The notes beneath the pieces were generated by a model. The model was given only the letters and a program-made list of their open reading frames with translations, made no database searches and was not told the DNA's origin. DNA of 37,255 nucleotides from Ignavibacteria bacterium. Its GTDB lineage: Bacteria > Bacteroidota > Ignavibacteria > UBA10030 > F1-140-MAGs086. Below, piece after piece: positions 453-29,468 of the stretch. Position 1 is the stretch's first letter. Each line of letters starts with the position of its first letter. A program made the translations under genes and the position numbers. The DNA lies in contig VGWC01000020.1 of the NCBI GenBank assembly GCA_016873775.1, forward strand, positions 1 to 37,255, read 5' to 3'.

Positions 453-2342
453 TCATCTATGCAAATACACGAGCAGCACAGAAATATCCGATGGAGTAAC
501 TCCACTTATCCGCGATGCTTGCCCAAGTGTTTGCGGTCGTATGTGTGAGAGTTTTTCTTTTCCCTCCGCTGAAAGCGAGCGAACACGCGTGTAATCAAAA
601 CTTTCCGGCACGGTTATATTCTCTGACTTTTCAAATTTCTCTACATCAATTTTCTGGCGAGAGATGTAGCCGTCGTATTTTAAGTCTATTTCTACTTGCT
701 CAATGGATTCTTTTTCGATACGACCTTTTAAGTGTAGTCCACTTTCAAAGTGGGCTACACTTAGCAAATCCACCAACTTCACATTCGAGCGTTTTACAAG
801 TTTTGCAATTGGTTCTCGCTGTGTAATCGGCATTTCGTTTTGAGACTTTAGATAATCGTTGACTTCCTCCGGGGCAATTGTATTTTCATTTACGAACTGC
901 GAAAGTCGAGTTATCATTTCTTCTTTTTTGTCTAATCGTTGTTTTGCCACTTCATCAACAAGCCCAATGTTGTAACCAATTTTTGTCAATCTTCTATCCG
1001 CATTATCCTGTCGCAACAGCAAACGATACTCCGCACGCGAAGTGAACATTCGATACGGCTCGTCAATAAGCAAGTTCACCAAGTCGTCAATCAAAACTCC
1101 GATATATGCTTCGCTGCGCTTCAAGATAAACGGCTCTTTGTTGTGAACATAGTGCGCCGCGTTTATACCGGCAATCAATCCCTGTGCCGCCGCTTCTTCG
1201 TAACCGGAAGTTCCGTTGATTTGTCCCGCATGAAAAAGTCCACCAACAAGTTTTGTTTCCAGAGAAAGTTTGAGTTGATATGATGGAAAGTAATCGTATT
1301 CCACAGCGTAACCGTGACGAAGCATTTTTACGTTTTCCAACCCTGCAATTGTTCTCATTCCGTACAGTTGAATTTCTTGTGGAAGACTTGTGGAAAATCC
1401 GTTGACATAAACGAAGTTAGTTTTATATCCTTCCGGCTCAAGAAAAATATGATGACTTCCTTTGTCAGAAAATCGCGCAATTTTATCCTCAACTGATGGA
1501 CAATATCGTGGACCTTTTCCTTTGATAATTCCTGTAAAGAGTGGCGAACGTTCAAATCCTTTGCGTAAAATTTCGTGCGTTTTTTCGTTCGTATGTGTCA
1601 AATACATCGGAATTTGAGCATTTATTATTTTCTCTGTTTGAAAAGAAAAAGGTTGCGGATTATCATCTCCCGGTTGCAACTCGATGCTTGAAAAATCTAT
1701 TGAATCAATATCAATGCGAGGTGGGGTTCCAGTTTTCAATCTACCGATTTCAAAGCCAAGTTTTTCGAGCGATGGAGAAATTCCAGAAGACGACTTTTCC
1801 CCAAATCTTCCACCAACTGTTTGTGAAAAGCCAGTGTGCATCAAACTTCGTAGAAATGTTCCTGCGCAAATAACAAGCACAGAGCAATTTATTTGCCCGT
1901 GATAAGTAGTAGTAATTCCAGTAATTTTTCTTTCTTCGTTCGAATACTCTGAAAGAATTTCATCCACAGAATCCTCGAGTAAATCGAGATTTGTTTGAGA
2001 TAGAATAAGTTCTCGTGCTTTTCGTGCATAAAGTTCTCTATCATTTTGAGAACGCGGCGACCAAACAGCCGGACCTTTTGACGTGTTCAACATTCGGAAA
2101 TGAATTCCTGATAAGTCTGCAAGTTTTCCCATTACTCCACCGAGGGCATCAACTTCTCGTGCAAGTTGCCCTTTTGCGGTTCCGCCGATTGAAGGATTGC
2201 ACGACATTCTTCCAATCGAATCTTTTGACATTGTAACGAGCAATGTTTTGCAACCAAGTTTCGCTGAAGCAATTGATGCTTCGATGCCGGCATGTCCGCA
2301 ACCGATTACGATGATATCGTATTTATTTTTTGTTTGTTTCAC
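453..2342 (-). CDS. mnmG: tRNA uridine-5-carboxymethylaminomethyl(34) synthesis enzyme MnmG (GidA)
   Basis: FAD-dependent partner of MnmE, which together install the (carboxymethyl)aminomethyl group on wobble U34 of tRNAs in the cytoplasm. At 629 residues it is full length. Visible motifs are the dinucleotide fold GCGHAGIEA (residues 14-22), GGTAKGQLAREVDALGG, LKTGTPPRID, CPSVEDKIARF, the family signature GQINGTSGYEEAAAQG, TSRAEYRLLLRQDNADRR, and the C-terminal QVEIDLKYDGYISRQ and QASRISGVTPSDI. The start is GTG at 2342: an in-frame TAG lies nine bases upstream and the FAD motif begins 13 residues in, so no other start fits. The start codon is the centre of a parS-like palindrome. mnmE lies directly upstream with a 6-bp gap. 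Residues 527-538 are encoded by a 35-bp near-palindrome (729-763), an oddity in an essential-type enzyme. Confidence 0.97.
   Translation of the reverse strand: MKQTKNKYDIIVIGCGHAGIEASIASAKLGCKTLLVTMSKDSIGRMSCNPSIGGTAKGQLAREVDALGGVMGKLADLSGIHFRMLNTSKGPAVWSPRSQNDRELYARKARELILSQTNLDLLEDSVDEILSEYSNEERKITGITTTYHGQINCSVLVICAGTFLRSLMHTGFSQTVGGRFGEKSSSGISPSLEKLGFEIGRLKTGTPPRIDIDSIDFSSIELQPGDDNPQPFSFQTEKIINAQIPMYLTHTNEKTHEILRKGFERSPLFTGIIKGKGPRYCPSVEDKIARFSDKGSHHIFLEPEGYKTNFVYVNGFSTSLPQEIQLYGMRTIAGLENVKMLRHGYAVEYDYFPSYQLKLSLETKLVGGLFHAGQINGTSGYEEAAAQGLIAGINAAHYVHNKEPFILKRSEAYIGVLIDDLVNLLIDEPYRMFTSRAEYRLLLRQDNADRRLTKIGYNIGLVDEVAKQRLDKKEEMITRLSQFVNENTIAPEEVNDYLKSQNEMPITQREPIAKLVKRSNVKLVDLLSVAHFESGLHLKGRIEKESIEQVEIDLKYDGYISRQKIDVEKFEKSENITVPESFDYTRVRSLSAEGKEKLSHIRPQTLGQASRISGVTPSDISVLLVYLHR
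729..763. repeat. 35-bp near-perfect palindrome inside mnmG
   Basis: TAAGTGTAG (729-737) pairs with CTACACTTA (755-763), and CCACTTT (739-745) pairs with AAAGTGG (747-753). There is a single mismatch (738/754) and one central base, so 16 of 17 arm positions pair. In the mnmG frame it encodes LSVAHFESGLHL (527-538), in the variable linker just before the conserved QVEI..KYDGYI motif. Such long symmetry is not expected from coding constraint. It is most likely a small palindromic repeat element that inserted in frame. Confidence 0.75.
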
Positions 2343-12578: not shown

Positions 12579-15098
12579 CTATTTTACCAGCATCATTTTT
12601 TGCGTTGAAACGAAACTCCCTGCAGAGAGTTTGTAAATGTATGTGCCCGAAGGTAGATTTGACGCATCAAATTCTATGGTGTAGTATCCTGCATCTTGTG
12701 TTTTGTTGATTAACGTACGGATTTCTCGTCCAAGAATGTCGTAGATTTTCAACGTTACCAACTGCGTTCCTGCGAGCGAATACTGAATTTTCGTCGCTGG
12801 GTTAAACGGATTAGGATAATTTTGCAAAAGCACGTATTGAGAAGGAGCAGAAGAATTATTGTCCCTTACTCCAACAATACCATCTACAAAATTCAATGCA
12901 CCAATGACAAAGCGTTCAACGGGTGAACCGGGAGGACTATCAATAGCAGGTCGTAATGAACTAATATCAACACCAAACGTAGCAACGGTAAAATTATCGG
13001 TTAAATTACCAATTGCATTTAAACTATCAAGTCCGCGGAATTGATACAATGGCACCCAATTGGTTCCGATGTATGGTCCTAAAACTTCAGGATAGACACC
13101 AATGGTACTGTCTGCGATGCCGGAATTAATTTCGACACCAACTAATCCTTGATTTGCACCTGATGTTGGACGGTCTGCAAGATAGTCAACGCCTAAATAA
13201 TTGTTCAAGAAATCTAAATCAAGATTTGATGAACCGGGACGTCCGTGTTGCCATCCAATATCTTCCGAAAAAACAATTAGTTTTGATTTCATACCGGAAG
13301 TACCGCCGCTTAAATATGCTTTGATAGAGTCGCGTTGTACAGCAGATGCAGTGCTCGTATTTTCACCTAACCAAATTACTTTTTTGAAATCGCGTAATGA
13401 AAAAGAAATAGTTGAACTTATTGTGCCGCGATTCATAATTTCGTATGTAATGCCATATCTTGCAAGAACTGCGGTTACAGAATCAAGACTTGTTCTGCTA
13501 TCCGTAATTGTTGAATCGTATGTTACTAATACTTCGCCACGCCCCTGACGTTTCAGCGTGAGGTCAAACGTTTGCGCCGATTTCAACGAATCGTTGCCCG
13601 CATAGCCCCACACAGCCCATTGACCGATAACGGAATCTCCGGGATTTAATCCGAAACTTGCTAACGTTGCGTCAACTTCGTAGTTCTTCATAGTCATCAT
13701 CGTATCCAATCCATCATTGTTAGAAATCATTGTGAACACGGGGGTAGCAATGGATGGAATTCCAAATTTCCATTGATACATAACTCCCGGACCCGAAGAA
13801 CCCCAGTTAATCATTACCGTTGAGGAATTGTTGGAAGACGTTACAAGTGTTGCGCCCGATGGAGGGGAATACAAATTAAACGGCGAAAGAGTAGGAAGTT
13901 CGCGTTTCAACGTAATCGCGCGTGGACCGTTGGTAGATTTTAATGAGTCATTTTCTGCATTGTTTCTGTACGCCCAAATGTCCCAAGACCCAACGAGTGA
14001 TTCACCTTGAGCAACGCCTGCATCATTTAGGATTTCATCTAATTCTCCCAATGTCATCGTCAAAGAATTAGTTGAGGAAAATTGCGTAAGTAATCGTTGC
14101 GGCAACGCTGTTCCGAATACCCAATTGTATGTTGCTCCTGCTGCTGCGGTATCCCAAGCAAACGTGATGTCGTCGTGAGAACCGGGAAATGTTGTTACGG
14201 TTATTCCGGCTTCGGGAGAATTTATGACAAAAGGATTGAGCGGACCTGATTCGGTATTTGCTAATTCCAATCCGAATAATCTATCGGGAGCTCCTTGAAA
14301 TACGCCGCCAAGTGTTGCTTTTCCCATAGCCAATCCTTTGGTGATGAATAAACCGCCTGCAATTGCATTTGCTCCTGCTGTAGTAATTTTCGTTTTGATG
14401 TCAAACGTTACCCCTGTTGCTTGAAGCGTTGTCAAATCAAATTGATGAATCAGCTGGGGAAAACCTTGTCCTTGACTTTGGTCCCATACCCACAAAAACG
14501 GACCTTCGGGGGTATAGGGGTCGTACGCAGAACCATATTTTGCTGTTAATACATTGGTCATCGTTGCAATAACTGTTCCGGTTCTGCTTACACAAGTGAG
14601 AGCATCATTCCAACCGCTTACCCAAAATCCGTCGCGAATCTGGTCATAAGCAATAGAGCGGATACTCGCAACAGACGTTGTAATTGTGCTAATAACTGAC
14701 ATTATTGTCGGGTCAATAACAGCAATCATATTTCCTGCGGCAATTCCTCCGTATAAATATTGACCATCCCACGCTAAATCCCGAACGCCGGTTGCGCCGG
14801 AATAATTACCTAATGGCAATGAATCTATAAATGTTCCGTCGGATGCGAAACGCAAGAACATATTTCTGTTCCATTTGGTAACATAAAATATGTCGCCGGC
14901 ATATTCTGCTCCGGCGCTTCCTAAACCTGAAAGCGCTTGTAAATCATAATCAAACTGAACATCCCATTGTTCTTCTGAAAACTGACTTGAAGAAATAGGA
15001 ATATCCGTTGGTTTGAACGGGCTTCTCTCTGCTTCCTGAGCAAATAACTTTATTCCAGAAAAAAGCACGAGAACGAAAAGTAAATAACGATACAACAT
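12579..15098 (-). CDS. T9SS-exported multidomain protein (beta-propeller, Ig-like modules, flavodoxin-like domain, sorting domain)
   Basis: 839 residues from ATG 15098, which starts a clear signal peptide (MLYRYLLFVLVLFSGIKLFAQ) with AAGGAAAA upstream. An open extension to 15170 is rejected. Residues ~40-270 look like a YVTN-type beta-propeller (GDIFYVTKWNRNMFLRFASDG, DLAWDGQYLYGGIAAGN, AYDQIRDGFWVSGWND). Residues ~290-510 hold two related Ig/FnIII-like modules of the form 'TW/NWGxxxxGxxYxWxFG...GxWxxWxYxxNDSLKS'. Residues ~515-740 form an alpha/beta region (VTYDSTITDSRTSLDSV, KKVIWLGENTSTASAVQRDS, KLIVFSEDIGW) without a recognised catalytic motif. Residues ~759-839 are a T9SS type A domain (QNYPNPFNPATKI, IYDILGREI, SGTYIYKL). 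Likely secreted or cell-surface; ligand unknown. Confidence 0.88.
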   Translation of the reverse strand: MLYRYLLFVLVLFSGIKLFAQEAERSPFKPTDIPISSSQFSEEQWDVQFDYDLQALSGLGSAGAEYAGDIFYVTKWNRNMFLRFASDGTFIDSLPLGNYSGATGVRDLAWDGQYLYGGIAAGNMIAVIDPTIMSVISTITTSVASIRSIAYDQIRDGFWVSGWNDALTCVSRTGTVIATMTNVLTAKYGSAYDPYTPEGPFLWVWDQSQGQGFPQLIHQFDLTTLQATGVTFDIKTKITTAGANAIAGGLFITKGLAMGKATLGGVFQGAPDRLFGLELANTESGPLNPFVINSPEAGITVTTFPGSHDDITFAWDTAAAGATYNWVFGTALPQRLLTQFSSTNSLTMTLGELDEILNDAGVAQGESLVGSWDIWAYRNNAENDSLKSTNGPRAITLKRELPTLSPFNLYSPPSGATLVTSSNNSSTVMINWGSSGPGVMYQWKFGIPSIATPVFTMISNNDGLDTMMTMKNYEVDATLASFGLNPGDSVIGQWAVWGYAGNDSLKSAQTFDLTLKRQGRGEVLVTYDSTITDSRTSLDSVTAVLARYGITYEIMNRGTISSTISFSLRDFKKVIWLGENTSTASAVQRDSIKAYLSGGTSGMKSKLIVFSEDIGWQHGRPGSSNLDLDFLNNYLGVDYLADRPTSGANQGLVGVEINSGIADSTIGVYPEVLGPYIGTNWVPLYQFRGLDSLNAIGNLTDNFTVATFGVDISSLRPAIDSPPGSPVERFVIGALNFVDGIVGVRDNNSSAPSQYVLLQNYPNPFNPATKIQYSLAGTQLVTLKIYDILGREIRTLINKTQDAGYYTIEFDASNLPSGTYIYKLSAGSFVSTQKMMLVK

Positions 15099-15204: not shown

Positions 15205-17742
15205 TTATTTAAGCACTACGAACTTCTTCGTTTCTGTGTTGCACAACTTACCATGTTGTGTAACGAATATGCGATAAACATACATTCCGCTTGTTAAAGC
15301 ACTTGCATCAAACTCAACTTCGTGTTTCCCCGCTTCTTTTGTTTCGTTATTTAATAGTGTTGCCATTTCTCTTCCGAGAATATCGAATACTTTCAGCGTA
15401 ACATTACTAATTGCCAACATCGAAAAGCCAATAGTCGTTTTCGGATTGAACGGATTCGGATAGTTTTGCGAAAGTGAAACCGCAGAAGGAATGTTATTAG
15501 AAATTTCTTGCGCACCCATAATTATATTGTACGAAAACGCAGACCGTCCATGAGTAAACGCAACAAGTTTTCGCGTCGGTGAATGAAGCGTTAAATCGTG
15601 AACGGAAACATCGGGAAAATTTTCGCCGAGAATATTCCACGTTTCTCCTACATTTGTTGTGAACATAACGTTCAAATCCGTTGCGATATAAAGATGCGAA
15701 CGATTTTGCTCGTCCACAATGACATCATTGATAGGAATATCGGGGAGCGATTCGCCGATGTTGCTCCACGTTGCACCGAAATTGGTTGTTCGAAAAATAT
15801 GTCCTCCAAAATCATACACATTGAAACCGGAAAGAGTTACATACGCAATGTTTGCAGATTCCGGGTCAACGCTTACACGCGTTGCCCAACGATTCGGAAG
15901 CGAGTCGTCAATGTTTACCCAGTTTGTTCCGCCGTTGGTTGTTACCCACACGCGCGAGTCATCTGTTCCGACATAAATAACATTCGAATCCGTTTGCGAA
16001 ACATCAATCGTAGAAATTGTTCCCACTCGTCCACCGTTCCCGTATGTTAAATCGCCGCTGATGGCAGTCCAGTTTTGCATATTATCTTTTGTACGATACA
16101 CGCGTTGCGTTCCTACGTATAATGTTTTGGGATGCTGCAAATCCATTGCAATCGGTGTTGACCAATTAAATCTGTCGTTGGCGCCTATTCCGTTCGTTCC
16201 GTCCTCAAACGAATTTCCGCCATCGGTAGAAAATCCTAAACCACCGTTTTGATATTCTGCATAAACAAAATTAGAATCCGTCGGGTCAACGAGACAGTAA
16301 AAACCATCGCCTCCATAAATTTCAGACCAACTACTGTGGGTGCTATTGCTTGTTCTCAATGTTCCGTTATCCTGCGTTCCGCCAAGAAGTTTATTCGAAA
16401 ACTGAAAATCTATTGTTCCCGCATAAAACTGTGTTATCGGAAGATTCAATGATTTATTCCACGATGTTCCTCCGTTGGTTGAAACAAAAATTCCGCCGTC
16501 GTTTCCCAAAACAATTTTATTCGGATTCGATGGAGCGTATTCCATAGCGTGTTGGTCAACGTGTACATCAAATGAAAGAATGTCTGAAAATGAAGTTCCT
16601 CCGTTCGTGGATTTGTAAAACGAAGTCATTCCTAACCAAACGACGTTCGCATTGGTCGGATGAACAACGATAATATTATTGTACCACACCTGCGACTCGA
16701 ACATTTCCGCGCCATCATTAACCTGATGCCAATCATTTCCTCCATTCGTAGATTTGTAAACTCCTTTTACGTTCACACCGTCTGCAACAAGCGCAAATAT
16801 CGTATTTGGGTTTGAAGACGAAATTGCAAGCGAAATTCTTCCAAGATTTTCATCGTTATTTGGAAATCCGGCTGTTACTTGCGTCCAGTTCTCTCCTCCG
16901 TTGGTTGAAAGAAAAAGTCCGCTTGCAACACCGGAAATAACACTGTACCGCGGCGTTCGGTACCGTGTCCACATTGCCGCAAACATTCTGCTCGAATTCA
17001 TTGGATGAAAAACAATATCTGTTGCTCCCGTCGTATCGTTGAGAAAGAGAACGCGATTCCAGTTTGCACCTCCGTTGGAAGACTTGAACACTCCGCGCTC
17101 TTGTGTTTTTCCGCGATACAAACCAAGCGCGGCAACAAAAATTTCTTGCGGATAATTGGGATTGACAACTATTTTTCCGATGTGTCCCGTGCTTTCCAAA
17201 CCAATGTTTGCCCACGTTTCACCGCCGTTGGTTGTTTTCCATACGCCGTTTCCGGGATACGTTGCAACTCCCGCAGGATTCGCTTCTCCCGTTCCGACAT
17301 AGATACAATTAGGATTTGTCGGGTCGAACGAAAGCGCGCCGATGGAAAAATGTTCGTTGAAAATATTTGTCCACGTGTTCCCATTATCTGTTGTTTTCCA
17401 TACGCCGCCGGAAGCAGAGCCGGCGAAAAAAATATTTTCGTTTGTCGGATGAATAATAAGCGATGTAATTCTCCCGCCAATGTTTGTTGGTCCGGCAAGC
17501 GTCCACATTCCTGACGTTTTTTTATTTGCAAAGCGTGTGTTCATTTCGCTTTTTGCGTTTTCCAAAACTTGGAAAGGAATATCTTCGCGCGGAAAACTTC
17601 GTTGTGTAATAAACCAATCGTTATCGAGGTTTTCCTGTTCTTTAAAAAATCCGTTATCGTTGTTATGGTGATACGTTATAAAAAAATATGCAATGAAAAA
17701 CGGAAGAGAAAGAGAAATTGCAAATGCGAATTTGGGCTTCAT
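15205..17742 (-). CDS. T9SS-exported BNR/sortilin-like beta-propeller protein
   Basis: 845 residues. N-terminal hydrophobic segment (FAFAISLSLPFFIAYFFITY) is an export signal without an obvious cleavage site. The body opens with MWTLAGPTNIGGRITSLIIH and carries about 13 'x(K/S)(T/S)(T/N)xGGxxW' Asp-box/BNR blades (e.g. VWKTTDNGNTWTNI, LFLSTNGGENWTQV, VWVTTNGGTNWVNI) alternating with 'P(T/S)NPNxIYVGT' strands, the pattern of sortilin/VPS10-like and glycoside-hydrolase-like propellers. This suggests two propellers in tandem. Residues ~758-845 are a type A sorting domain (SQNYPNPFNPKTTIGF, VFDILGREMATLL, SGMYVYR). No catalytic residues were identified, so hydrolase activity should not be assumed. 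A damaged inverted copy of its sorting-domain sequence lies at 17860-18003. Confidence 0.9.
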   Translation of the reverse strand: MKPKFAFAISLSLPFFIAYFFITYHHNNDNGFFKEQENLDNDWFITQRSFPREDIPFQVLENAKSEMNTRFANKKTSGMWTLAGPTNIGGRITSLIIHPTNENIFFAGSASGGVWKTTDNGNTWTNIFNEHFSIGALSFDPTNPNCIYVGTGEANPAGVATYPGNGVWKTTNGGETWANIGLESTGHIGKIVVNPNYPQEIFVAALGLYRGKTQERGVFKSSNGGANWNRVLFLNDTTGATDIVFHPMNSSRMFAAMWTRYRTPRYSVISGVASGLFLSTNGGENWTQVTAGFPNNDENLGRISLAISSSNPNTIFALVADGVNVKGVYKSTNGGNDWHQVNDGAEMFESQVWYNNIIVVHPTNANVVWLGMTSFYKSTNGGTSFSDILSFDVHVDQHAMEYAPSNPNKIVLGNDGGIFVSTNGGTSWNKSLNLPITQFYAGTIDFQFSNKLLGGTQDNGTLRTSNSTHSSWSEIYGGDGFYCLVDPTDSNFVYAEYQNGGLGFSTDGGNSFEDGTNGIGANDRFNWSTPIAMDLQHPKTLYVGTQRVYRTKDNMQNWTAISGDLTYGNGGRVGTISTIDVSQTDSNVIYVGTDDSRVWVTTNGGTNWVNIDDSLPNRWATRVSVDPESANIAYVTLSGFNVYDFGGHIFRTTNFGATWSNIGESLPDIPINDVIVDEQNRSHLYIATDLNVMFTTNVGETWNILGENFPDVSVHDLTLHSPTRKLVAFTHGRSAFSYNIIMGAQEISNNIPSAVSLSQNYPNPFNPKTTIGFSMLAISNVTLKVFDILGREMATLLNNETKEAGKHEVEFDASALTSGMYVYRIFVTQHGKLCNTETKKFVVLK

Positions 17743-18161
17743 AAAAAAACGGATACCGAATAATGAAAAAGTTGCATCAACATAGTTAAAACAAGTGTTT
17801 GAAAAAAAAACTTCACGGGTTCCGCAAGTATTGAATGTTTAACTTCTGTATTTTCTACTTCGCAAAACTATCCGAATCCGTCCAATTCGAAAACGACTAT
17901 TGGCTTTTGGCTGTAGGCAGTTAGTAAAGTATTCGGCATTCTTGGGGGAGAAATGGCAACGCTTTTAAATAACGAAACGCAAGAAGCAAGGAAACATAAA
18001 TAGTAATAAAAAGAGGTAAGATATTTTAGTGAATCTTTGAGAATCTCGAGAATAGATGTACCAAATATTTTTTTTGCCGTGATATGAATCAATAGAATTT
18101 CTATTATGAATTTCCTATTTTTTACAAGAATTATATATCATCTTTTTCACAAGAGTATTTT
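17743..18161. other. 419-bp divergent intergenic region between two T9SS genes
   Basis: Apart from the sorting-domain fragment at 17860-18003, the region holds AT-rich sequence that must contain divergent promoters for the BNR gene (minus) and the giant gene (plus). I could not identify either with confidence. AAGAG a few bases upstream of ATG 18162 is a weak ribosome-binding candidate. No RNA gene or complete ORF is supported. Confidence 0.5.
17839..18003 (+). pseudogene. Decayed T9SS sorting-domain fragment, inverted relative to the adjacent gene
   Basis: In one plus-strand frame 17860-18003 reads SQNYPNPSNSKTTIGFWL, a TAG, AVS, then KVFGILGGEMATLLNNETQE and ARKHK, ending in TAG. It aligns residue for residue with the sorting domain of the minus-strand gene at 15205 (SQNYPNPFNPKTTIGFSMLA... 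KVFDILGREMATLLNNETKE AGKHE), with a 12-bp in-frame deletion and an internal stop. By eye close to nine bases in ten are identical to ~15320-15471 on the opposite strand. There is no start codon or body, so it cannot encode an exported protein. Confidence 0.8.
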
Positions 18162-21100
18162 ATGCGTATTCAAAACTATCTAAAAATATGTTTGGGTCTT
18201 TCAATGTTAATTACAATGTCTGTTTTTTCCCAAACTTCAACATCGTGGATTGGAGGAAGCACGAATTGGAGCACTTCGTCTAACTGGACAAACGGCGTTC
18301 CCAATTCGGCGGTAGATGCGATTATTGGAGATGCAAGTTTTACAGGTTCCAATCAACCGAACTTAAGCGCGTCCTCATCGTGTAAATCGCTAACTATTGG
18401 CAATGGAACGAAAACTTCAACTCTTACATTAGACCAAACGCTTACGGTTTCCGGAAATGTGTTAATAGGAACAAATGGTACAATTAATCATTCCAACGGT
18501 GTAACGTTTTCGTTATCAGGCGATTGGACAAAGTACGGAAACTATACTACGTTGAGTACCAGCGACCAAGTAACGTTTAACGGAACAACACAATCCATAA
18601 ACGGCGGAACGGCGTTTCGAAAACTTACAATCAATGCAGGAAGCACGGTTACGTTGAACGCGAACATTTCTGCGTCAAGAGCCGTGGCGATAAGCGGAAC
18701 ATTCAATCCGAATGAATCTCCAACATATTTGTTCACGGGAAGCAATACATTGACCGTGAACAACGGTGGAAAACTTCTTGTCAAAGCGGAATTGTACTCA
18801 CAAAATTTTACAGGATTTTCCGGGACAACATTTAATACAGGAAGCACTGTTGAATACGCTTCAACAACAACAAACCAAACAATAAGCAGTTCATACACGT
18901 ATTCAACACTTCGAATCAGCGGCGCAACAACAAAATCGTTAAGCGCAAACCTCAACGCACTTTCTTCGGTAAATTCTTCCGACGGAAATATCGTCGTTAC
19001 GGAAGGAACATTCGACCTTTCTTCGTACACAGCCAACAGAGGAACAACGGTTGCCGGCGGAACTCTTACTGTCTCCAATGGAGCAACTCTGAAAGTTGCG
19101 GGAACAAAGTCTCTTCCTTCCAATTACGCAACACATTCGTTTGGGGGAACCAGCACGGTTGAATACTCCGGAGCGGACCAAACAATTGATTTAGAATCAT
19201 TCGGAAATTTATCCTTAAGCAGCAGTGGAGGTTCGGCAATAAAAACGCTTCCTTCGACATCAATGACAATTGGCGGAAATTTTTCGACAAGTATTGGAGG
19301 CGGAACAAGCGTATCAGTAATAGCAAATGCGGCTCTAACGATAAACGGAAATGTGTCTCTCGGTTCTTCCACAACTTTTGATGGCAGTTCTTTCACGCAT
19401 AATATTATAGGGAACTGGACGAACAATGGAACATTTACGGGAAATACGAGCACGATAAATTTTTCCGGAACGAATGCAGTAATTAGCGGAACAGGGAATA
19501 ATAATTTCAATAATGTCGTAATTTCCGGAAACGGGGTAACTTCAAATTCGGTAACGAATATAAATATTGATGGAAATATTTCCACAAGCGGCACAGGAAC
19601 ATTTTCTCACGCTGCTGGTGACGGAATTCTTACAATGTCCGGCGCATCAAAAACAATTTCCGGAACAGGAATTACGTTTGGAAATCTTACCATCACTAAT
19701 TCGGTTACGACAACAACCTCATTTTCTATTGCAGGAAACTTCGTTGTGAACGGAACGTTTTCTGCCTCCTTAGGAACAATGACGATAAGTGGGAGTTCAA
19801 AATCAATTAGCGGAAGCGGAACAATTACAATGAATGCAATCAATGTTACGGGAACGATTTCTACATCGGCAAGTTTTTCACTCAATTCGTATCTCACGGT
19901 GAGTGGTTCTCTCTCCGCAACATCGGGCGCCGTTACGTTTTCTGGAACAACAACTCTTTCGGGAACGGCAAATCTTTTCAATGTTATTTTAAACGGTACA
20001 AAACTTCAACTTGGAACCGGATCTGTGTTGGGAGTTGCGGGAAGTTTAACATTGAGCGCGGGAACTTTCGACGTTACCTCTACGACACCAAATACGGTTG
20101 ATTTCAACTCGACTTCTTCGCAATCAGTGATTGGAACGACATACAACAACGTAAGTTTTTCTGGGAACGCGACAAAAACCGCAGGAAGCGCATTGACGGT
20201 GAACGGAGATATTTCGATAAATGCCGGAGCAACATTTAATGCGAGTTTCTATACGCATTCCTTGTATGGAAACTGGACAAACAACGGCACATTTACCGCA
20301 AGCACAAGCACGATTCAATTTGTTGGAGGAAACGACGCTGCAATTTCCGGCGCTTCAACATTCAATATTCTTACGGAAAACAAAAATTCTTCTTCAAACA
20401 ATATTTTATTAAACAGCAACGTATCCGTAGCAACACTCAATATGACCTCGGGAAAAATGACTACGGGAAACAATGCAGTAACCATTACCACGACAAGAAC
20501 CGGCGGAGGAATAATTTTGGGAACGATTTCACGAACGCATATTTTTTCGAACGGAACTTCGTATGCGTTTGAAGGTCCGTTCAATACGATAACTTTTGCA
20601 AGCGGCGGCGCGGGAATTTCTTCGGTAAGCGTTACTGTTACGAGTGGCGCCGTGAGTGATTTTCCGTTTGGCGGTTCTGTTAATCGTGAATATAATGTGA
20701 GCGTTACGGGAGGAGCATACAACGCAACATTACGCTTACACTATGATGATGCGGAGTTAAACGGCAATTCCGAAACTGCAATGTCATTATGGAAGTATTC
20801 CGGCTCATGGTCAAGCTCGGGAAAAACATCCAACAGTTCAACGGATAATTGGGTTGAACTCAATAGTTTAACGAACATTGGAACACGTTGGACATTATCG
20901 GAAGACGTCAATGCGGCGAGATGGAACGGTTCGGTAAGTTCTGCATGGGAAAATGTTTCAAACTGGACTGCAGTACAAGGAGTGCCGTCGCTTCCCCCTT
21001 CGGCAAATGATATTGCGCAGTTGGGAACGGTATCATTTGTCAATCAACCGATTATCAGTTCTGCTGTTTCCGTGAAGAGTATAAAATTCGGAAGCGTACA

Positions 21101-24100
21101 AGCAGCCGTTCTTTCAGTAAATTCCGGTTCACTAACTACTTCGGGAAATATTGGCGGAACGTGGAGCGCCGATGCAGCACATACTATCAGCATCGGTGCG
21201 CAATCTATGTCAATTGGCGGAGATATAGATTTGAGTGATGGAACAACCGGTCGAACAATCAGTTTAAGCGCAAGCACAGGAACAATAACAATTTCCGGTT
21301 CGCTTACGCAATCGGGAGGAGCAGTGGTTTCGTTCACGGGCGCAGGAAATTTGAATATCGGAAGCAACTATAATTTTTCCAACGGAACTTTTTCTGCGAA
21401 TACCAGCACTGTAACCTATAATGGTGCAGGTACGCAAACAGTGGCGCCGGTAACATATTATCATCTAACTTTTGATAAAACACTCGGAACAGCAACGCTT
21501 TCGTCATCAGCGTCGGTGAATGGGAATTTTACTCTTTCTACCAATGGTACTTTTGAAGCAAATGCAAATCTCATCATCGCAGGAAATGTATCCATTGGCG
21601 CTGGCACTACGATGAATGGGAATGGTTCTACTATTTCGGTTGGCGGGGATTGGACAAACAACGGAACATTTACTGCAAGTACGGGAACTGTTGTTTTTAA
21701 CGGAAGCAGCAGTCAAGCAGTTTCTACAACAACATTCAATAATCTTACTGTGAATAAAACCGCTGGAATACTTTCTCCTTCGGGAAATTTAACCGTGAAT
21801 GGTGATTTTTCATTTTCTAACGGAACAGTTAACCTTGCCTCGTATTCTCTCTCCAGAAGTTCCATTGGCGGCACATTTTCTCTTGCTTCGGGAACAACTT
21901 TGAACGTCGGGGGCGCGAATAATTTTCCTTCCAATTTTGCAACGAATAGTTTAGCAAGTTCAAGCACGGTGGAATACAACAGCACAGTTTCGCAATCCGT
22001 TGCGGCTATGACGTATGGAAATCTTTCGTTTTCCAATGGTGGAAGCAATGCAAAAACATTATTGGGATCTTCGACCGTTGCAGGTAACTTTGTGATAAAC
22101 TCCGGAGCATCGTTCAATGCAGGTTCGTATTCGCTTTCAATACAGGGAAACTGGTCAAATAACGGAACGTTTACACCATCAACAAGTAGTATTGCGCTTA
22201 GCGGAACTTCGAAAACATTGAATGGAAATTCTACGTTCAACAATTTAAATGTTACTGGAGTTTATACTGCTACGGATAACGTTACCGTGAACGGAACAAT
22301 GGATAATGACGGAACATTTACGACGGGAAATACAACGTTTGTTTCATCGGGAGATTTTTTAAATTCCGGCAATTTTTCGAACAGCGGAACCGTTACGTTT
22401 TCTGGCACTAATGCGCAAACGATTGTCTTAAATTCCGGTTTCACAAGTTCCGGAACAGTTAATTTTAACGGAACAAGCGCGCCCACGATGAGTGGAACAT
22501 CTTCGCCAAATTTAACAAACGTCAACATCAATAACACCAGCGGCGTTGCTGTCGAAGTGAATTGGACTATTGGCGGTAATTTTTCTGTTGGAAGCGGAAC
22601 AACATTTTCCGGCGGAAGTTCATCGCACACGTTTCAAAGTAATTTTACGAACAACGGAACAGTAACAAGTAATGGAACAATCAATTTTTCGCCCACGGGT
22701 TCGGTAACGCTTACACTTTTGGGAACTTCTTTTTCTAGCGCGGGAACTGTTAATTTCTCAGGAATAGGATTAATCGCATTAACCGGGGGAAATCCGAATT
22801 TCGCACAAGTCAATGTTTCCAACACGAATATTTCAGGCATCGTACTTGTTTCCAATTGGAACGCAAGCGGAAGTGTAACGATTGAAAACGGTGCGTTGTT
22901 GAATGCCGGCTCCAATTTAACGCATACGATTTCCGGAAATTTCACGAACAACGGAACATTTACCGCAAATTCTTCTACGATTGTCTTAAACAGCGGAACA
23001 AGCGCAAATATTACCGGAACAAGCACAACAACGTTTAATAACATAACGATTGCAGGAGCGATTGATGCCGTTGTTGATTTCAATGTCGTTGGAAATTTTA
23101 CGAACAATGGAACGTTTAATGCTGCCGGAACTACCGTTACGTTTTCTGGTTCTTCTCCTTCAATCATTTCGGGAAGCACTTCTCCGACGCAGTTTTACAA
23201 TCTTGATATTTCAAAAACTTCCTCGTCGGTTACGTTGAATGTTCCTCTTACCGGAATCTCATCGCTTAATGTTTCGAACGGAACATTTGACATTTCTTCA
23301 TTCACTGTTTCGCAAAGCGGAAGTGGAACGTTAACGTTAGCTTTAGGAACATTCCTGAAAATAGGAGGAACAAATTCTCTTCCAACTTTTGATACGTACG
23401 CGTTGAGCAATAACAGTACTGTCGAATATTATGGAACAGGAACACAAATAATTTCTGCTGTTAATTATGGAAATCTGACGAGCAGTAATTCTGGAAATCG
23501 AATTCTCGCATCGAGCGGAACAATCGGTATTGCAAGAACATTTACACCCGGAACAAATTCATACACCGTTACTGGAAGCACAATAGATTTTAACGGAAGT
23601 GAAGCGCAAACAATTCCGCTATTCCATTACAATAATCTTACGAGCAGCAACTCCGGAAACCGAATTCTTGCATCGAGTGGAACAATCGGTATTGCGGGAA
23701 CATTTGCACCGGGAACAAATTCGTACACCATCACCGGAAGCACGATAGATTTCAACGGCAACGGAGCGCAAACAATTCCGGGGTTTGTATTCAATAATTT
23801 TTCTACAAGCGGAAGCGGTACAAAAACTCTTTCGGCAAATACGACGGTGAATGGAACAATAGCGCTCACTTCTGGAAGTTTCGATGTTGCTACTTTTATA
23901 TTAACAGCAAAAGGAGATGTGGAAAACGATGATGCGGTTGTCGGTTCGGGAAAAATTTTATTGAGCGGAAGTACCGCGGCACATTCTCTTTCAGGAAATG
24001 GTTCGTTCACAAATCTTGAATTGAACGATGCAAACGGCGCAACGTTCTCTTCTGACGTTACCGTGAACGGAACGATGACAATGATGAACGGTAATATCAC

Positions 24101-27100
24101 GACCAATGCCAACAAACTTGTTATGTCATCTTCGGGAAATCTTTCACGAACAAGCGGGCATATCATTGGTAATTTGCAAAAAAATATTCCAACAGGTTCT
24201 CCTTCCGTTTCGTTTGAAATCGGTGATGCAACATACTATACGCCTGCAACAATAACGTTTGCAAACGTAACTTCTTCAGGAAATTTGACAATGAAAACAA
24301 CGCCAAACGACCATTCCGACATTGCAAATTCCGGAATAAAAACCGAGAAAAGCGTCAACCGTTTCTGGACGCTCACGAACAATGGAACTATTTTTGACTC
24401 GTACAACGCAGTGTTTAATTACGTAGCAAACGATGTTGACGCGGGTTCCAACACCAATTTCTTTATTGCAAAAAATTACAACGGCGTTTTATGGTCTTCT
24501 GTTTTCCTGGGAACTGTTACCGCTACTTCGGCGCAAATTTCGAACGTAACTTCGTTCGGCGATTTTCAAATCGGCGAATCAACGAACAATCCTGTTCCTT
24601 CGATTACTACCATTTCTCCGACAAATAAAAATGTTGGCGGTTCCGGATTTATGCTAACAGTAACGGGAAATAATTTTGTCTTCGGTTCTGTTATTCGTTT
24701 CAACGGAAGCGACAGAACAACAACGTACACAAGCGTTACTGAAATTTCTGCACCAATTCTTGCGAGCGATTTGGATAGTGCGGGAACGTTTTACATTACT
24801 GTTTTTAACCCCGCGCCCGCAGGCGGAACTTCGAATGCGGAGCCATTTACCGTCAATGGCGGAACAATCAGCGGAACAGTGTTCGACGATGTTGATGGAA
24901 ACGGAATAAAAGATGTTGGCGAATCAGGACTTCAAAACTGGAAAATAAAAATTTCTGGCGCAGGCGTTGATTCGCAACTTACGGATATTTCTGGAAATTA
25001 CTCTTTTTCGGATTTACATTCCGGAACATTTTCCGTTTCAGAAGAATTGCAAAACGGATGGATTCAAATAATGCCAAGTTCTCCATCGTCATATTCAATT
25101 TCACTCGGCGGCGCAACGATAAATTTTTCGGGAAATAATTTCGGGAATTTTCATCTCGGAACAATTAGCGGAACAACATTCAATGACTTAGATGGCGACG
25201 GAACAAAAGATATCGGCGAACCCGGTTTGGAAAGTTGGAGAATGCGTCTTGCTGGACCAGTAACAGATTCAATGTTCACGGATGCGAACGGAAATTATTC
25301 GTTCGGCAACATAACCGTTGGAAATTATACAATCACGGAAGCGTTGCAAAACGGATGGATTCACACAATTCCTGTTTCTCCTTCGTCGTATTCGATTTCG
25401 GTTTCGAGCGGAACCAATGCAACGAATAGAGATTTCGGAAATTATCAGATAAGTTCTATCAGCGGAAATGTATTTAACGATTTAGATGGAGACGGAACGA
25501 AAGACCTTGGTGAACCTGGACTTTCCAATTGGAAAATAAAAATCAGTGGCGCGGCAAGCGATTCTGTCTATACCAATGCAAGCGGAAATTTTTCGTTCAA
25601 TAATTTGTTGGCGGGAAATTATACGTTGTTTGAAGACCTGCAAAGCGGATGGAAGCAAACGATTCCTGTATCGCCAACGAGTTATCCGATACTTATTACG
25701 AGCGGAACCAATGCAACGAATAGAGATTTCGGGAATTTTCAACTTGTGGGAATCAGCGGAACAACATTCAACGACGAAAACGGAAATGGTCTGAAAGATG
25801 CGGGTGAATCGGGGCTCTCGAACTGGAAAATAAAACTTTCCGGCGCAAAGGTTGATTCGCAACTTACCGACGGAAACGGAAATTATGCGTTCACCAATTT
25901 AGTTTCGGGAAATTATTCCCTGAGTGAAGTGGCGCAAAACGGATGGATTCAAACGCACCCATCGTCGCCGGGAACATATTCGTTTTCGGTTTCGAGCGGA
26001 ACAAATTATCCGAATACGAATTTCGGAAATTATCAACTTGCAGGTATTAGCGGGCAAGTGTTCGATGACGTCAACGGAAACGGGAGTAAAGATGACGGTG
26101 AAAACGGATTGCAAAACTGGAAAATAAAAATCAGTGGCGTTGCAACGGATTCCGTATTTACCAATGCGAGTGGAAATTTTTCGTTCACGAATTTACTTGC
26201 GGGAAATTATACGGTGAGTTTTGTGATACAAAGCGGATGGATACAAACAATGCCAATTGCGCCGGGAACATATTCGCTGACAATTACAAGCGGACAAAAT
26301 GCAACAGCAAAAGATTTCGGCGCGTTTCAACTTGGAACTATCAGTGGAACGAAATTTTTAGATGCCGATGGCGACGGAGTGAAAGATCTTGGAGAAAGCG
26401 GTATCGTGAACTGGAAAATAAAAATTTCTGGCGCAAAGAACGATTCTGTTCTTACGGATGCAAACGGAAATTTTTCATTCACGAGTTTAAACGTTGGAAA
26501 TTATTCCGTGAGTGAAGTGGCGCAAAACGGATGGTTGCAAACGCTTCCTGTTTCGGGAGGTTCATATTCCGTAACGATTACGAGCGGAACAAATGCTACG
26601 GGAAAAAATTTCGGAAATTTTCAATATGGAATTTTGAGCGGTCAAACATTTAACGACGCGGATGGCGACGGAGTGAAAGATCTTGGAGAAAGCGGTATCG
26701 TGAACTGGAAAATAAAAATTTCTGGCGCAAAGAACGATTCTGTTCTTACGGATGCAAACGGAAATTATATGTTCAGTACGCTCACGTATGGAAATTATAC
26801 CGTAAGCGAAGTTCAGCAAATTGGATGGTCGCAAACATTTCCCGTTGCAGGAACATATTCCATTTCTGTTGCAAGTGGAAGCGTTTTTTCGGGAAAGGAT
26901 TTTGGTAATTTCCAACATCCGGTAATCGGCGGAATGAAATTTAATGACATCAATGGAAATGGAATTAAAGAGGAAAACGAATCGGGACTGGCAAACTGGA
27001 AAATAAAAATTTCCGGTCCGGAGAATGATTCGATGTTCACTGATGCGGGAGGAAACTATTTGTTTTCCGATTTATCAGCAGGAACGTACACGATTAGCGA

Positions 27101-29468
27101 GGTTCAGCAAAACGGATGGACGCAAACGTACCCACTTTCAACAACGTATACCGTTTCACTTTCTTCCGGAGTAAATACAACCGGAAAAGATTTTGGGAAT
27201 TTTAAACTCGGAACGATTTCCGGAATTTTATTTAATGATTACAACGGCAACGGAATTCGCGAAGGCGGCGAAAGCGGTATTGTAAGTTGGAAAATATATT
27301 TGTACAAGACCGATACGCTAACGCTCATTGATTCTGCAATTACATCAGATGAAGGATATACTTTCGCAAACGTAACCGTCGGAACGTATTATGTTCGGGA
27401 GAAAGTGCAAAGTGGATGGATGCAAACGTCGGCACATCCTTCGGCAATTATCATTACGAGCGGAACAAATTCCGCGAGCAATAATTTCGGAAACTTTCAA
27501 TTGGGAAATATCGGCGGAATGAAATTCAGCGATGCAAACGGTAACGGTGCTAAGGATGTTGGTGAAATCGGTTTGCAAAATTGGGTGATAAAAATTTCCG
27601 GACAAAAAAACGATTCGGTAATTACGGATGCAAACGGAAATTATCTGTTTTCAGGTTTATCTGCGGGAACGTACACGGTGAGTGAAGTTGCACAAAGCGG
27701 ATGGACGCAAACGATGCCGTCGTTTCCGGGAACATATTTCGTTACGATAACTTCGGGTTTCGGTGCAACGGGAAAAGATTTCGGTGATGTGCAACTGGGA
27801 AGTATCAGCGGGCAAAATTTTAACGATTCCGATGGTGATGGAATGAAAGATGCAGGCGAAGTTGGACTTCAAAACTGGAAAATAAAACTTTCGGGAGGCA
27901 AATCAGATTCTGCATTAACCGACGTGAACGGAAATTATTCATTCATCAATTTATTACCGGGCGCATACATCTTACAGAGAGAACAGCAAAGCGGATGGTT
28001 AATTACCGCGCCGGTAAATCCATCTTTGTATGTTGTGTTTCTCTCTACGGGACAAAGCGCCACAAATTATGACTTCGGAAATTTTCAATACGGAACAATT
28101 AGCGGAACAACGTTTGACGATGCGAACGGAAACGGGACGCGCGATGTTGGAGAACAATCGCTCGATAGTTTTTACGTGAGTATTTCCGGCGCGCAATCGG
28201 ATACCGTGATGACGGATTCAAGCGGAAACTATGTATTCTCGGAACTTACACCGGGAACATATACGGTTTCGGAAATTTCTCGTGTTGGATGGGCGCAAAC
28301 ATATCCGACAAATCCGAACACGTATTCCGTTGTTATGACCAGCGGAGGAATTTTTACGGGAAAAGATTTCGGGAATTACAATGGCTCGTTGAAGTTCCGT
28401 ACGTTTACTATTTCGGAAATAACCGGAAAAGCCGCCAAGTTGAAGTTCGGGAAAAATGATGTTCTTAAAGAATTACCGAATCAGATGACGGCGGTTGCGA
28501 ATGTGTTTGTAAAAATCGGAAAATCGGGAGCGACGTTTTTAGGTCTTGCTCAAACAGAAAAAGATTCTGCGAAAAAATACGGATGGATTCACTACAAAAA
28601 TGCAGCCGCGATCGTAAAACTTTATACATCATCGCATTCGGGAACGGCGTATCCAATTGATTATCTACGTATTCCCGGGAAAAAGAATAAAAAATTAAGC
28701 AAAGCAATAAATGCAAGCAGAATGCAATACGATAATTCTGCGTGGGAGCAAGGCGTTTTGTTTAATTTAAATTTGAAAGCGAGTGAGAAGAAAGTAACAC
28801 CGGAATACTTTGGCGATTTATTGTTAGATACAACGTTTATATTGATGGGAAAACAGTTATACGGAATGTCGCTGACGAACATGGGAAAATATCTTGATAG
28901 CATTATGACATATTATGAAAAATTCGGAGTAACAAACGATGCGGCGTATGACGAAGTGAGGTTGTTTGTTAGCAAAGTACTGAAACCTATCAACGCTGGA
29001 TTTGCAACAACGTTCAGTATTTCCAATAGTTGGATAGACACAACGAAAGTAAAAAATCAGCGGCTTGCGTATGAGATAACCTTGTTAGGAATTAAAACTG
29101 CGGGGAACGTTGGAATTGTAAAACAGTTGCCGACAAAACCGAATGATGAAAACATTGGAATTGGCGAGTATGATTATTTTCCGTCGGGAATATCGCTGGA
29201 GCAAAACTATCCGAATCCGTTTAATCCGACAACAACGATTCGATTTGAAATTCCCGTAGGGGCAATTCATGAATTGCCCTTACAAACAACGTTGAAAGTG
29301 TACGATGTTCTTGGAAGAGAAGTTGCAACGTTATTAAACAACGAACCAATGGAAGAAGGCGAACACGAAGTTCAGTTCGATGCAAACGGATTAACGAGCG
29401 GTGTGTATTTCTATCGTCTTCAAACGGAAAATATTGTTCAAACGCGAAAGATGATTCTTCTGAAATAG
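18162..29468 (+). CDS. Giant T9SS-exported adhesin-like surface protein (3768 aa) with SdrD-B-like repeats
   Basis: Signal peptide residues 1-24 (MRIQNYLKICLGLSMLITMS then VFSQ). Residues ~25-2140 are Asn/Thr/Ser/Gly-rich beta-repeat sequence of the parallel beta-helix/autotransporter type. Two 'WxGxxxxxWxxxSNWT' modules occur (near 29 and 917), and variants of GNWTNNGTFTASTSTI recur near 417, 703, 1163, 1330, 1493, 1592 and 1645. A TIG/IPT domain follows (~2145-2233; ITTISPTNKNVGGSGFMLTV). Residues 2234-3406 are twelve ~98-residue repeats with acidic calcium-loop motifs such as FNDxDGDGxKDxGE, as in SdrD B / Cna-B-like modules. Residues ~3407-3675 are an unrecognised, Lys-rich domain. Residues ~3676-3768 are a type A sorting domain interrupted by a palindrome-encoded VGAIHELPLQ. 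Predicted: a long calcium-stiffened stalk for adhesion, inferred from architecture only. The frame is intact over 11.3 kb, so it is probably functional. Confidence 0.92.
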   Translation: MRIQNYLKICLGLSMLITMSVFSQTSTSWIGGSTNWSTSSNWTNGVPNSAVDAIIGDASFTGSNQPNLSASSSCKSLTIGNGTKTSTLTLDQTLTVSGNVLIGTNGTINHSNGVTFSLSGDWTKYGNYTTLSTSDQVTFNGTTQSINGGTAFRKLTINAGSTVTLNANISASRAVAISGTFNPNESPTYLFTGSNTLTVNNGGKLLVKAELYSQNFTGFSGTTFNTGSTVEYASTTTNQTISSSYTYSTLRISGATTKSLSANLNALSSVNSSDGNIVVTEGTFDLSSYTANRGTTVAGGTLTVSNGATLKVAGTKSLPSNYATHSFGGTSTVEYSGADQTIDLESFGNLSLSSSGGSAIKTLPSTSMTIGGNFSTSIGGGTSVSVIANAALTINGNVSLGSSTTFDGSSFTHNIIGNWTNNGTFTGNTSTINFSGTNAVISGTGNNNFNNVVISGNGVTSNSVTNINIDGNISTSGTGTFSHAAGDGILTMSGASKTISGTGITFGNLTITNSVTTTTSFSIAGNFVVNGTFSASLGTMTISGSSKSISGSGTITMNAINVTGTISTSASFSLNSYLTVSGSLSATSGAVTFSGTTTLSGTANLFNVILNGTKLQLGTGSVLGVAGSLTLSAGTFDVTSTTPNTVDFNSTSSQSVIGTTYNNVSFSGNATKTAGSALTVNGDISINAGATFNASFYTHSLYGNWTNNGTFTASTSTIQFVGGNDAAISGASTFNILTENKNSSSNNILLNSNVSVATLNMTSGKMTTGNNAVTITTTRTGGGIILGTISRTHIFSNGTSYAFEGPFNTITFASGGAGISSVSVTVTSGAVSDFPFGGSVNREYNVSVTGGAYNATLRLHYDDAELNGNSETAMSLWKYSGSWSSSGKTSNSSTDNWVELNSLTNIGTRWTLSEDVNAARWNGSVSSAWENVSNWTAVQGVPSLPPSANDIAQLGTVSFVNQPIISSAVSVKSIKFGSVQAAVLSVNSGSLTTSGNIGGTWSADAAHTISIGAQSMSIGGDIDLSDGTTGRTISLSASTGTITISGSLTQSGGAVVSFTGAGNLNIGSNYNFSNGTFSANTSTVTYNGAGTQTVAPVTYYHLTFDKTLGTATLSSSASVNGNFTLSTNGTFEANANLIIAGNVSIGAGTTMNGNGSTISVGGDWTNNGTFTASTGTVVFNGSSSQAVSTTTFNNLTVNKTAGILSPSGNLTVNGDFSFSNGTVNLASYSLSRSSIGGTFSLASGTTLNVGGANNFPSNFATNSLASSSTVEYNSTVSQSVAAMTYGNLSFSNGGSNAKTLLGSSTVAGNFVINSGASFNAGSYSLSIQGNWSNNGTFTPSTSSIALSGTSKTLNGNSTFNNLNVTGVYTATDNVTVNGTMDNDGTFTTGNTTFVSSGDFLNSGNFSNSGTVTFSGTNAQTIVLNSGFTSSGTVNFNGTSAPTMSGTSSPNLTNVNINNTSGVAVEVNWTIGGNFSVGSGTTFSGGSSSHTFQSNFTNNGTVTSNGTINFSPTGSVTLTLLGTSFSSAGTVNFSGIGLIALTGGNPNFAQVNVSNTNISGIVLVSNWNASGSVTIENGALLNAGSNLTHTISGNFTNNGTFTANSSTIVLNSGTSANITGTSTTTFNNITIAGAIDAVVDFNVVGNFTNNGTFNAAGTTVTFSGSSPSIISGSTSPTQFYNLDISKTSSSVTLNVPLTGISSLNVSNGTFDISSFTVSQSGSGTLTLALGTFLKIGGTNSLPTFDTYALSNNSTVEYYGTGTQIISAVNYGNLTSSNSGNRILASSGTIGIARTFTPGTNSYTVTGSTIDFNGSEAQTIPLFHYNNLTSSNSGNRILASSGTIGIAGTFAPGTNSYTITGSTIDFNGNGAQTIPGFVFNNFSTSGSGTKTLSANTTVNGTIALTSGSFDVATFILTAKGDVENDDAVVGSGKILLSGSTAAHSLSGNGSFTNLELNDANGATFSSDVTVNGTMTMMNGNITTNANKLVMSSSGNLSRTSGHIIGNLQKNIPTGSPSVSFEIGDATYYTPATITFANVTSSGNLTMKTTPNDHSDIANSGIKTEKSVNRFWTLTNNGTIFDSYNAVFNYVANDVDAGSNTNFFIAKNYNGVLWSSVFLGTVTATSAQISNVTSFGDFQIGESTNNPVPSITTISPTNKNVGGSGFMLTVTGNNFVFGSVIRFNGSDRTTTYTSVTEISAPILASDLDSAGTFYITVFNPAPAGGTSNAEPFTVNGGTISGTVFDDVDGNGIKDVGESGLQNWKIKISGAGVDSQLTDISGNYSFSDLHSGTFSVSEELQNGWIQIMPSSPSSYSISLGGATINFSGNNFGNFHLGTISGTTFNDLDGDGTKDIGEPGLESWRMRLAGPVTDSMFTDANGNYSFGNITVGNYTITEALQNGWIHTIPVSPSSYSISVSSGTNATNRDFGNYQISSISGNVFNDLDGDGTKDLGEPGLSNWKIKISGAASDSVYTNASGNFSFNNLLAGNYTLFEDLQSGWKQTIPVSPTSYPILITSGTNATNRDFGNFQLVGISGTTFNDENGNGLKDAGESGLSNWKIKLSGAKVDSQLTDGNGNYAFTNLVSGNYSLSEVAQNGWIQTHPSSPGTYSFSVSSGTNYPNTNFGNYQLAGISGQVFDDVNGNGSKDDGENGLQNWKIKISGVATDSVFTNASGNFSFTNLLAGNYTVSFVIQSGWIQTMPIAPGTYSLTITSGQNATAKDFGAFQLGTISGTKFLDADGDGVKDLGESGIVNWKIKISGAKNDSVLTDANGNFSFTSLNVGNYSVSEVAQNGWLQTLPVSGGSYSVTITSGTNATGKNFGNFQYGILSGQTFNDADGDGVKDLGESGIVNWKIKISGAKNDSVLTDANGNYMFSTLTYGNYTVSEVQQIGWSQTFPVAGTYSISVASGSVFSGKDFGNFQHPVIGGMKFNDINGNGIKEENESGLANWKIKISGPENDSMFTDAGGNYLFSDLSAGTYTISEVQQNGWTQTYPLSTTYTVSLSSGVNTTGKDFGNFKLGTISGILFNDYNGNGIREGGESGIVSWKIYLYKTDTLTLIDSAITSDEGYTFANVTVGTYYVREKVQSGWMQTSAHPSAIIITSGTNSASNNFGNFQLGNIGGMKFSDANGNGAKDVGEIGLQNWVIKISGQKNDSVITDANGNYLFSGLSAGTYTVSEVAQSGWTQTMPSFPGTYFVTITSGFGATGKDFGDVQLGSISGQNFNDSDGDGMKDAGEVGLQNWKIKLSGGKSDSALTDVNGNYSFINLLPGAYILQREQQSGWLITAPVNPSLYVVFLSTGQSATNYDFGNFQYGTISGTTFDDANGNGTRDVGEQSLDSFYVSISGAQSDTVMTDSSGNYVFSELTPGTYTVSEISRVGWAQTYPTNPNTYSVVMTSGGIFTGKDFGNYNGSLKFRTFTISEITGKAAKLKFGKNDVLKELPNQMTAVANVFVKIGKSGATFLGLAQTEKDSAKKYGWIHYKNAAAIVKLYTSSHSGTAYPIDYLRIPGKKNKKLSKAINASRMQYDNSAWEQGVLFNLNLKASEKKVTPEYFGDLLLDTTFILMGKQLYGMSLTNMGKYLDSIMTYYEKFGVTNDAAYDEVRLFVSKVLKPINAGFATTFSISNSWIDTTKVKNQRLAYEITLLGIKTAGNVGIVKQLPTKPNDENIGIGEYDYFPSGISLEQNYPNPFNPTTTIRFEIPVGAIHELPLQTTLKVYDVLGREVATLLNNEPMEEGEHEVQFDANGLTSGVYFYRLQTENIVQTRKMILLK
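23475..23798 (+). repeat. 54-residue tandem duplication in the giant gene
   Basis: Two adjacent 162-bp units encode NLTSSNSGNRILASSGTIGI followed by near-identical sequence through STIDFNG..AQTIP. The second unit begins at about 23637. Differences are mostly synonymous or conservative (ARTFTPG versus AGTFAPG), marking a fairly recent internal duplication in the beta-repeat region. Confidence 0.8.
24861..28379 (+). repeat. Twelve tandem ~294-bp SdrD-B-like repeats
   Basis: Units begin near 24861, 25159, 25451, 25745, 26037, 26332, 26626, 26917, 27210, 27504, 27797 and 28092. The pattern is 'GxISGxxFxDxxGxGxKDxGExGLxNWKIKISG...DSxxTDxxGNYxFxxLxxGxYxVSExxQxGWxQTxPxxxxxYxxxxxSGxxxxxxDFGNFQL'. 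The D-x-(D/N)-G-(D/N)-G-x-K/R-x-x-x-E segment is a calcium-binding-loop pattern. Unit 9 departs most (SWKIYLYKTDTLTL replaces WKIKISG). Units 6 and 7 share a perfect 106-bp match. Confidence 0.92.
26367..26472 (+). repeat. 106-bp perfect direct repeat, copy A (copy B 26661-26766)
   Basis: Bases 26367-26472 and 26661-26766 appear identical, beginning GATGGCGACGGAGTGAAAGA, in phase at a 294-bp offset within repeat units 6 and 7. Flanking parts of the two units differ, so this is local gene conversion or unequal exchange rather than whole-unit duplication. Confidence 0.85.
29256..29283. repeat. 28-bp palindromic element inside the giant gene's sorting domain
   Basis: GGGCAATTCATGAATTGCCC (29260-29279) is a perfect 20-bp palindrome. 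Extending to GTAG...TTAC gives 28 bp with one mismatched pair. It encodes VGAIHELPLQ (residues 3699-3708) between IRFEIP and TTLKVYDVLGRE, where sorting domains normally have only a short turn. The reading frame is preserved. Confidence 0.75.

Follow-up and report, generated by a model that had tools for sequence, protein, structure and literature searches.

A stretch of 37,255 nucleotides (nt) from an Ignavibacteria bacterium (assembly GCA_016873775.1, contig VGWC01000020.1, positions 1 to 37,255; here called the window) raises the question of how a short palindrome came to be translated within the type IX secretion system (T9SS) sorting domain of a giant secreted protein, and how the same palindrome came to lie in other sorting domains of the same genome. 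We identify the palindrome as a double-foot GTAG repetitive extragenic palindromic element (REP), and most probably it was inserted a single time into a sorting domain, after which recombination carried the domain, with the palindrome in it, into approximately 18 genes. The features of the window that bear directly on this question are as follows.

18162 to 29468, plus strand: open reading frame (ORF) encoding the giant secreted protein of 3768 amino acids, ending in the REP-bearing sorting domain

29190 to 29465, plus strand: T9SS type A sorting domain with the REP (TIGR04183, PF18962, AlphaFold model)

29256 to 29291, plus strand: loop joining beta strands 1 and 2, 36 nt, comprising the 28-bp REP and 8 nt

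29256 to 29283, no strand assigned: double-foot GTAG REP (GTAGGGGCAATTCA/TGAATTGCCCTTAC), 28 bp

The letters of the window at positions 29256 to 29283 are GTAGGGGCAATTCATGAATTGCCCTTAC. The first-pass annotation described a perfect 20-bp palindrome that extends to 28 bp with one mismatch and encodes VGAIHELPLQ, and both the coordinates (29260 to 29279 for the perfect part) and the frame (V-G-A-I-H-E-L-P-L(-Q) within the ORF) proved to be correct. When the 28-mer is read in its three frames, on either strand, one frame runs into TAG and one into TGA, and therefore only VGAIHELPL is translatable. As single-stranded DNA, the 28-bp palindrome folds into one hairpin (z = -4.6). Taken alone, the window palindrome is only mildly beyond chance, with 0.1 zero-spacer palindromes with arms of at least 10 per simulated window versus two in the real window, and it is the recurrence of copies that decides. 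A further palindrome of the window, at 364 to 385 (ACTCGTTTCAC/GTGAAACGAGT), is perfect, has arms of 11, and is intergenic.

Genome-wide results for this organism rest on pattern searches and fetched stretches. A search of the 2.54-Mb genome with the 28-mer, allowing up to three mismatches, identified 19 places (17 exact and 2 with one mismatch), versus no matches for the reversed control pattern, and the sequence is thus not unique. Eighteen of the 19 copies lie in genes with a T9SS type A sorting domain, and within that domain all occupy the same site to the base, where they are usually preceded by ATTCGATTTGAAATTCCC and followed by AAACAACGTTGAAA; the nineteenth, which ends contig C15, falls in none of the long reading frames of that region. 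The idea that such palindromes had entered coding DNA on many separate occasions does not fit these copies, as 18 of them share one junction and one domain family.

The host domain had been assigned to the T9SS sorting domains, and this assignment was confirmed by matches to TIGR04183 (E value, 1.2e-11) and PF18962 (E value, 7.3e-12), both of which exceed the curated cut-off, as well as by the C-terminal position and the beta-sandwich expected of type A. VGAIHELPL falls within the final ninety residues of the 3768-residue protein. The closest related solved structure is 8qb1_A, the C-terminal domain of mirolase (TM scores, 0.66/0.69), with a Foldseek E value of 5.5e-3 that is weak on its own.

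A protein search for the sorting domains of the genome gave 121 matches, fragments among them, and 75 domains that do not carry the element were measured. The interstrand stretch is exactly 18 nt in 72 of these 75, versus 36 nt in the carriers. Related sorting domains thus do not have loops of equal length, which supports the earlier view of the palindrome as an inserted REP-like element. The simplest reading of the loop lengths would be that 28 bp were gained and 10 bp lost, the frame thereby being kept. Two domains with loops of normal length are also present in the window.

12582 to 12830, minus strand: sorting domain without REP, normal-length loop (L207)

15262 to 15480, minus strand: sorting domain without REP, normal-length loop (L068)

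Directly upstream of the giant gene (17854 to 18006, plus strand), a sorting-domain remnant containing three stop codons was observed.

In the AlphaFold model, the extra residues fall in a turn, as the first-pass annotation had suggested, which is modelled as a beta-hairpin turn between strands 14-21 and 31-38 of the sorting domain. The block at the REP-encoded turn has a predicted local distance difference test (pLDDT) score of ~70, and the remaining beta-sandwich is well predicted. Based on this modelled location, the REP-bearing turn is a plausible neutral site for the protein.

The junctions are identical in every carrier of this genome. In the window copy, the 3' foot CTAC has become TTAC, which is silent (CTA to TTA, Leu), and this C-to-T change is common to most carriers; C2, C8, C31, and C69 retain CTAC. 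In a genome of the same genus, four sorting domains carry a copy at identical coordinates and with the same junctions, and three of these copies contain GGGCGATTCATGAATCGCCC, with both arms still paired. We propose that one 28-bp nonautonomous REP would have entered a T9SS sorting domain once, at its beta1-beta2 turn, before the split of the two sampled species of the genus. Approximately 10 bp of the 18-nt loop would have been lost on insertion, and the net gain of 18 nt would have preserved the frame while adding six residues to the loop. The REP would then have spread as a passenger of the sorting domain, because gene conversion or ectopic recombination would swap short tracts among the ~100 similar sorting domains of the genome. 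In this history, we infer that a REP-associated transposase (RAYT) mediated the first insertion, that the copying took place by gene conversion, and that the insert is neutral for secretion.

Plain duplication of whole domains or genes, with no later exchange and with constraint on the middle of the domain, appears unlikely as the origin of the copies. It would account for the clustering of carriers on the tree and for the few pairs that are similar over the entire domain, such as L001 and L046. However, the 200 bp upstream of the carrier domains are unrelated among the host genes (ungapped identity, 0.30), and therefore whole genes were not duplicated. In addition, diversity among the carriers is 0.024 in the palindrome and climbs on both sides, and third codon positions behave likewise, whereas no such drop towards the insert occurs in noncarriers. 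Among the 13 carriers used as intact and well flanked (the others being cut by contig ends or, on C69, broken), the near/far diversity ratio is 0.26; in 5000 random noncarrier sets of the same size it was never below 0.64, and in nearest-neighbor clusters it was never below 0.77. This diversity valley centered on the palindrome is the pattern expected from short conversion tracts around a shared insert. In a tree built from the flanks only, the carriers are clustered (4 changes versus 15.8 for shuffles) and a single carrier clade is not rejected (approximately unbiased test, p-AU of 0.44), with weak branch support.

The element is a double-foot GTAG REP, of the kind tied to TnpA_REP/RAYT subclass 2.4, and as such is already known. 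The GTAG-tagged REP superfamily comprises palindromes of 20 to 40 bp with a GTAG foot that are repeated in genomes (Di Nocera et al. 2013, PMC3733652), and the window element is similar, with GTAG at 29256, a length of 28 bp, and one hairpin. The double foot, with GT[AG]G as the 5' and C[TC]AC as the 3' terminus, is present as GTAG...CTAC in C2, C8, C31, and C69 and in copies from many phyla. According to Quentin et al. 2018 (PMC6006769), double-foot REPs belong to TnpA_REP subclass 2.4, which equals RAYT group 4. The element resembles the REPs of this subclass in its GTAG/CTAC ends, in its long perfect stem, and, in other genomes, in its in-frame position in a RAYT gene behind the HUH motif. 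It differs from them in being nearly restricted to sorting domains in this genome and in the TTAC foot of the window copy. GTAG-tagged REPs are mainly intergenic, and some are known within genes (PMC3733652), whereas in this genome all copies but one of the 19 are intragenic and share a single site in a single domain family. The intragenic REPs of Rickettsia conorii correspond to RPE-4 and RPE-6 (PMC3733652). Rickettsia palindromic elements (RPEs), here compared by description, are likewise in-frame palindromes within protein genes; however, they are found in varied, unrelated genes, and some of them are longer (RPE-1).

The exact 24-mer was found in at least 115 stretches of genome contigs from many phyla, including Cyanobacteria, Nitrospirae, Planctomycetes, Omnitrophica, Zixibacteria, Spirochaetota, Ignavibacteria, and others. 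Across phyla, the flanks are unrelated and the 28-bp ends GTAG...CTAC are mostly retained, and in the other genomes, 93 of 126 copies are not within long ORFs. Sorting domains of family f21 of the class contain the element at either of two turns, one following NPATDYIxVN and the other following YNVFGQTVLS, and these copies are separate insertions. In genome G313, a second GTAG-type peptide, VGANGRSPLQ, was identified in the first turn of a sorting domain. Sorting domains thus seem to be a recurrent landing place in the class, presumably owing to their number and their tolerant turns.

The palindrome in mnmG (window positions 734 to 758; GTAGTCCACTTTCAAAGTGGGCTAC) had been regarded as unrelated in sequence. 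This is correct for the core, and the genome does contain a second palindrome family; however, both palindromes have GTAG...CTAC feet and therefore belong to one superfamily. Two relatives of the mnmG palindrome were also observed, one of them a single intergenic copy (L275; C52, 9795 to 9819) and the other a GGAG-footed copy in frame in a gene that reads like a leucyl-tRNA synthetase (L276; C30, 1477 to 1501).

The separate insertions at two turns that other genomes of the class show, together with the two core versions at one site in the same-genus copies, speak for repeated independent insertion, in which a transposase would have hit one preferred site in sorting domain after sorting domain. 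For the copies in this genome we consider such a history distinctly unlikely, as each event would need the loss of the identical 10 bp, one silent mutation of the element is common to most carriers, and the carrier flanks are more alike than the noncarrier flanks, most so near the insert. Very unlikely, in our judgment, is selection of the insert for a role of either the lengthened loop or an mRNA hairpin: the insert is absent from most sorting domains of the genome, the same letters occur chiefly outside genes in other phyla, and the low diversity reaches into the flanks, even though the 28 bp are almost invariant and the same-genus variant keeps its palindromy by paired changes. A chance palindrome or an assembly artefact can be dismissed, since the 19 copies versus zero control matches and the independent occurrence in the same-genus assembly and in many phyla outweigh both the expectation of a single palindrome of such arm length about once per ten windows and the position of several copies at contig ends.

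In several other genomes, the element lies in frame within a RAYT gene, just behind the HUH motif, and the ORFs holding it, assigned by motifs, show NH[VILF]H and Y[IV]xNNP. In G153, G225, and G009, the copy inside the RAYT gene is the sole place matching the search, and in G264 and G340, the core within the RAYT gene is the common dispersed core. Among the RAYTs of the class, a sample biased by a query that itself carried an insert, palindromes with arms of at least 10 were found behind the HUH motif in 41 of 71 ORFs, with 9 for the parts before and after that stretch together. RAYT-internal palindromes with arms of at least 9 comprised 47 different ones among 48 ORFs. We rejected RAYT-internal palindromes as a novelty, since REPs inside subclass 2.4 genes have already been reported (Quentin et al., PMC6006769). 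The diversity of the cores of these GTAG-footed palindromes, at a fixed place behind the HUH motif, is nevertheless striking (loci L295, L301, L302, L303, L304, L336, L105, L131, L140, and L183 and, further, L345-L414). At L131, in a Brocadia genome, a 1278-residue ORF with several GAIHELP-like peptides lies beside a RAYT gene holding the same element.

A search for a RAYT had been suggested, and a relaxed search of the genome of the window identified two RAYT-like genes, on C81 (L420) and C14 (L428), both slightly below the NCBIfam cut-off; however, neither carries this core. Behind the HUH motif, the C81 gene contains a cluster of GTAG-footed palindromes of its own, whose core is GACAA, and the C14 gene contains a repeated peptide (VTRTSVRED/VTRTLVRED) at the same place. 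In this genome, the C81 pattern AAGACAA...TTGTCTT was found at the C81 locus only and is no commoner than its control. The genome also contains four Y1_Tnp genes (L016-L019), which are subclass-1.2-like, with motifs such as YIHKQKEHH. The Y motif given for subclass 1.2 in PMC6006769 is close to YIHKQKEHH, and that paper draws no link between this subclass and REPs. Short inverted repeats of their own kind are present near L016, L017, and L019, and the inverted repeats by the four Y1_Tnp genes were rejected as a source of the element, as they do not match it.

Several points weigh against a single insertion followed by copying. Some copies lie at contig ends and could be two halves of one copy, and the diversity valley may have been deepened by short-read assembly, through the smoothing of nearly identical stretches. 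The tree of the flanks is poorly resolved, and its best form requires 4 changes. The three same-genus copies with another, still palindromic core could also be explained by a second insertion. Finally, the relaxed search of the genome, an assembly 97.7% complete, identified no RAYT with the core AATTCATGAATT; the cognate RAYT may never have resided in this genome, or it may have been lost or missed. Only tentatively can it be suggested that the palindrome promotes its own copying, in which case the hairpin would be a recombination hotspot, the REP would spread in a transposase-free manner, and the arms would be matched by self-templated correction.

Searches of the open literature, whether by the letters of the element or for its presence in sorting domains, gave no relevant report, and the spread of a REP as a passenger of a recombining protein domain appears to be undescribed in the literature searched. 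REPs are usually counted as transposition products. Here, the copies of one genome would be almost wholly explained by the recombination of a protein domain, and therefore copy number alone is no proof of transposition. The carriers also point to a sorting-domain turn that would tolerate six additional residues, and the insert would serve as a natural marker of exchange among T9SS sorting domains, in tracts of tens to approximately one hundred bases.

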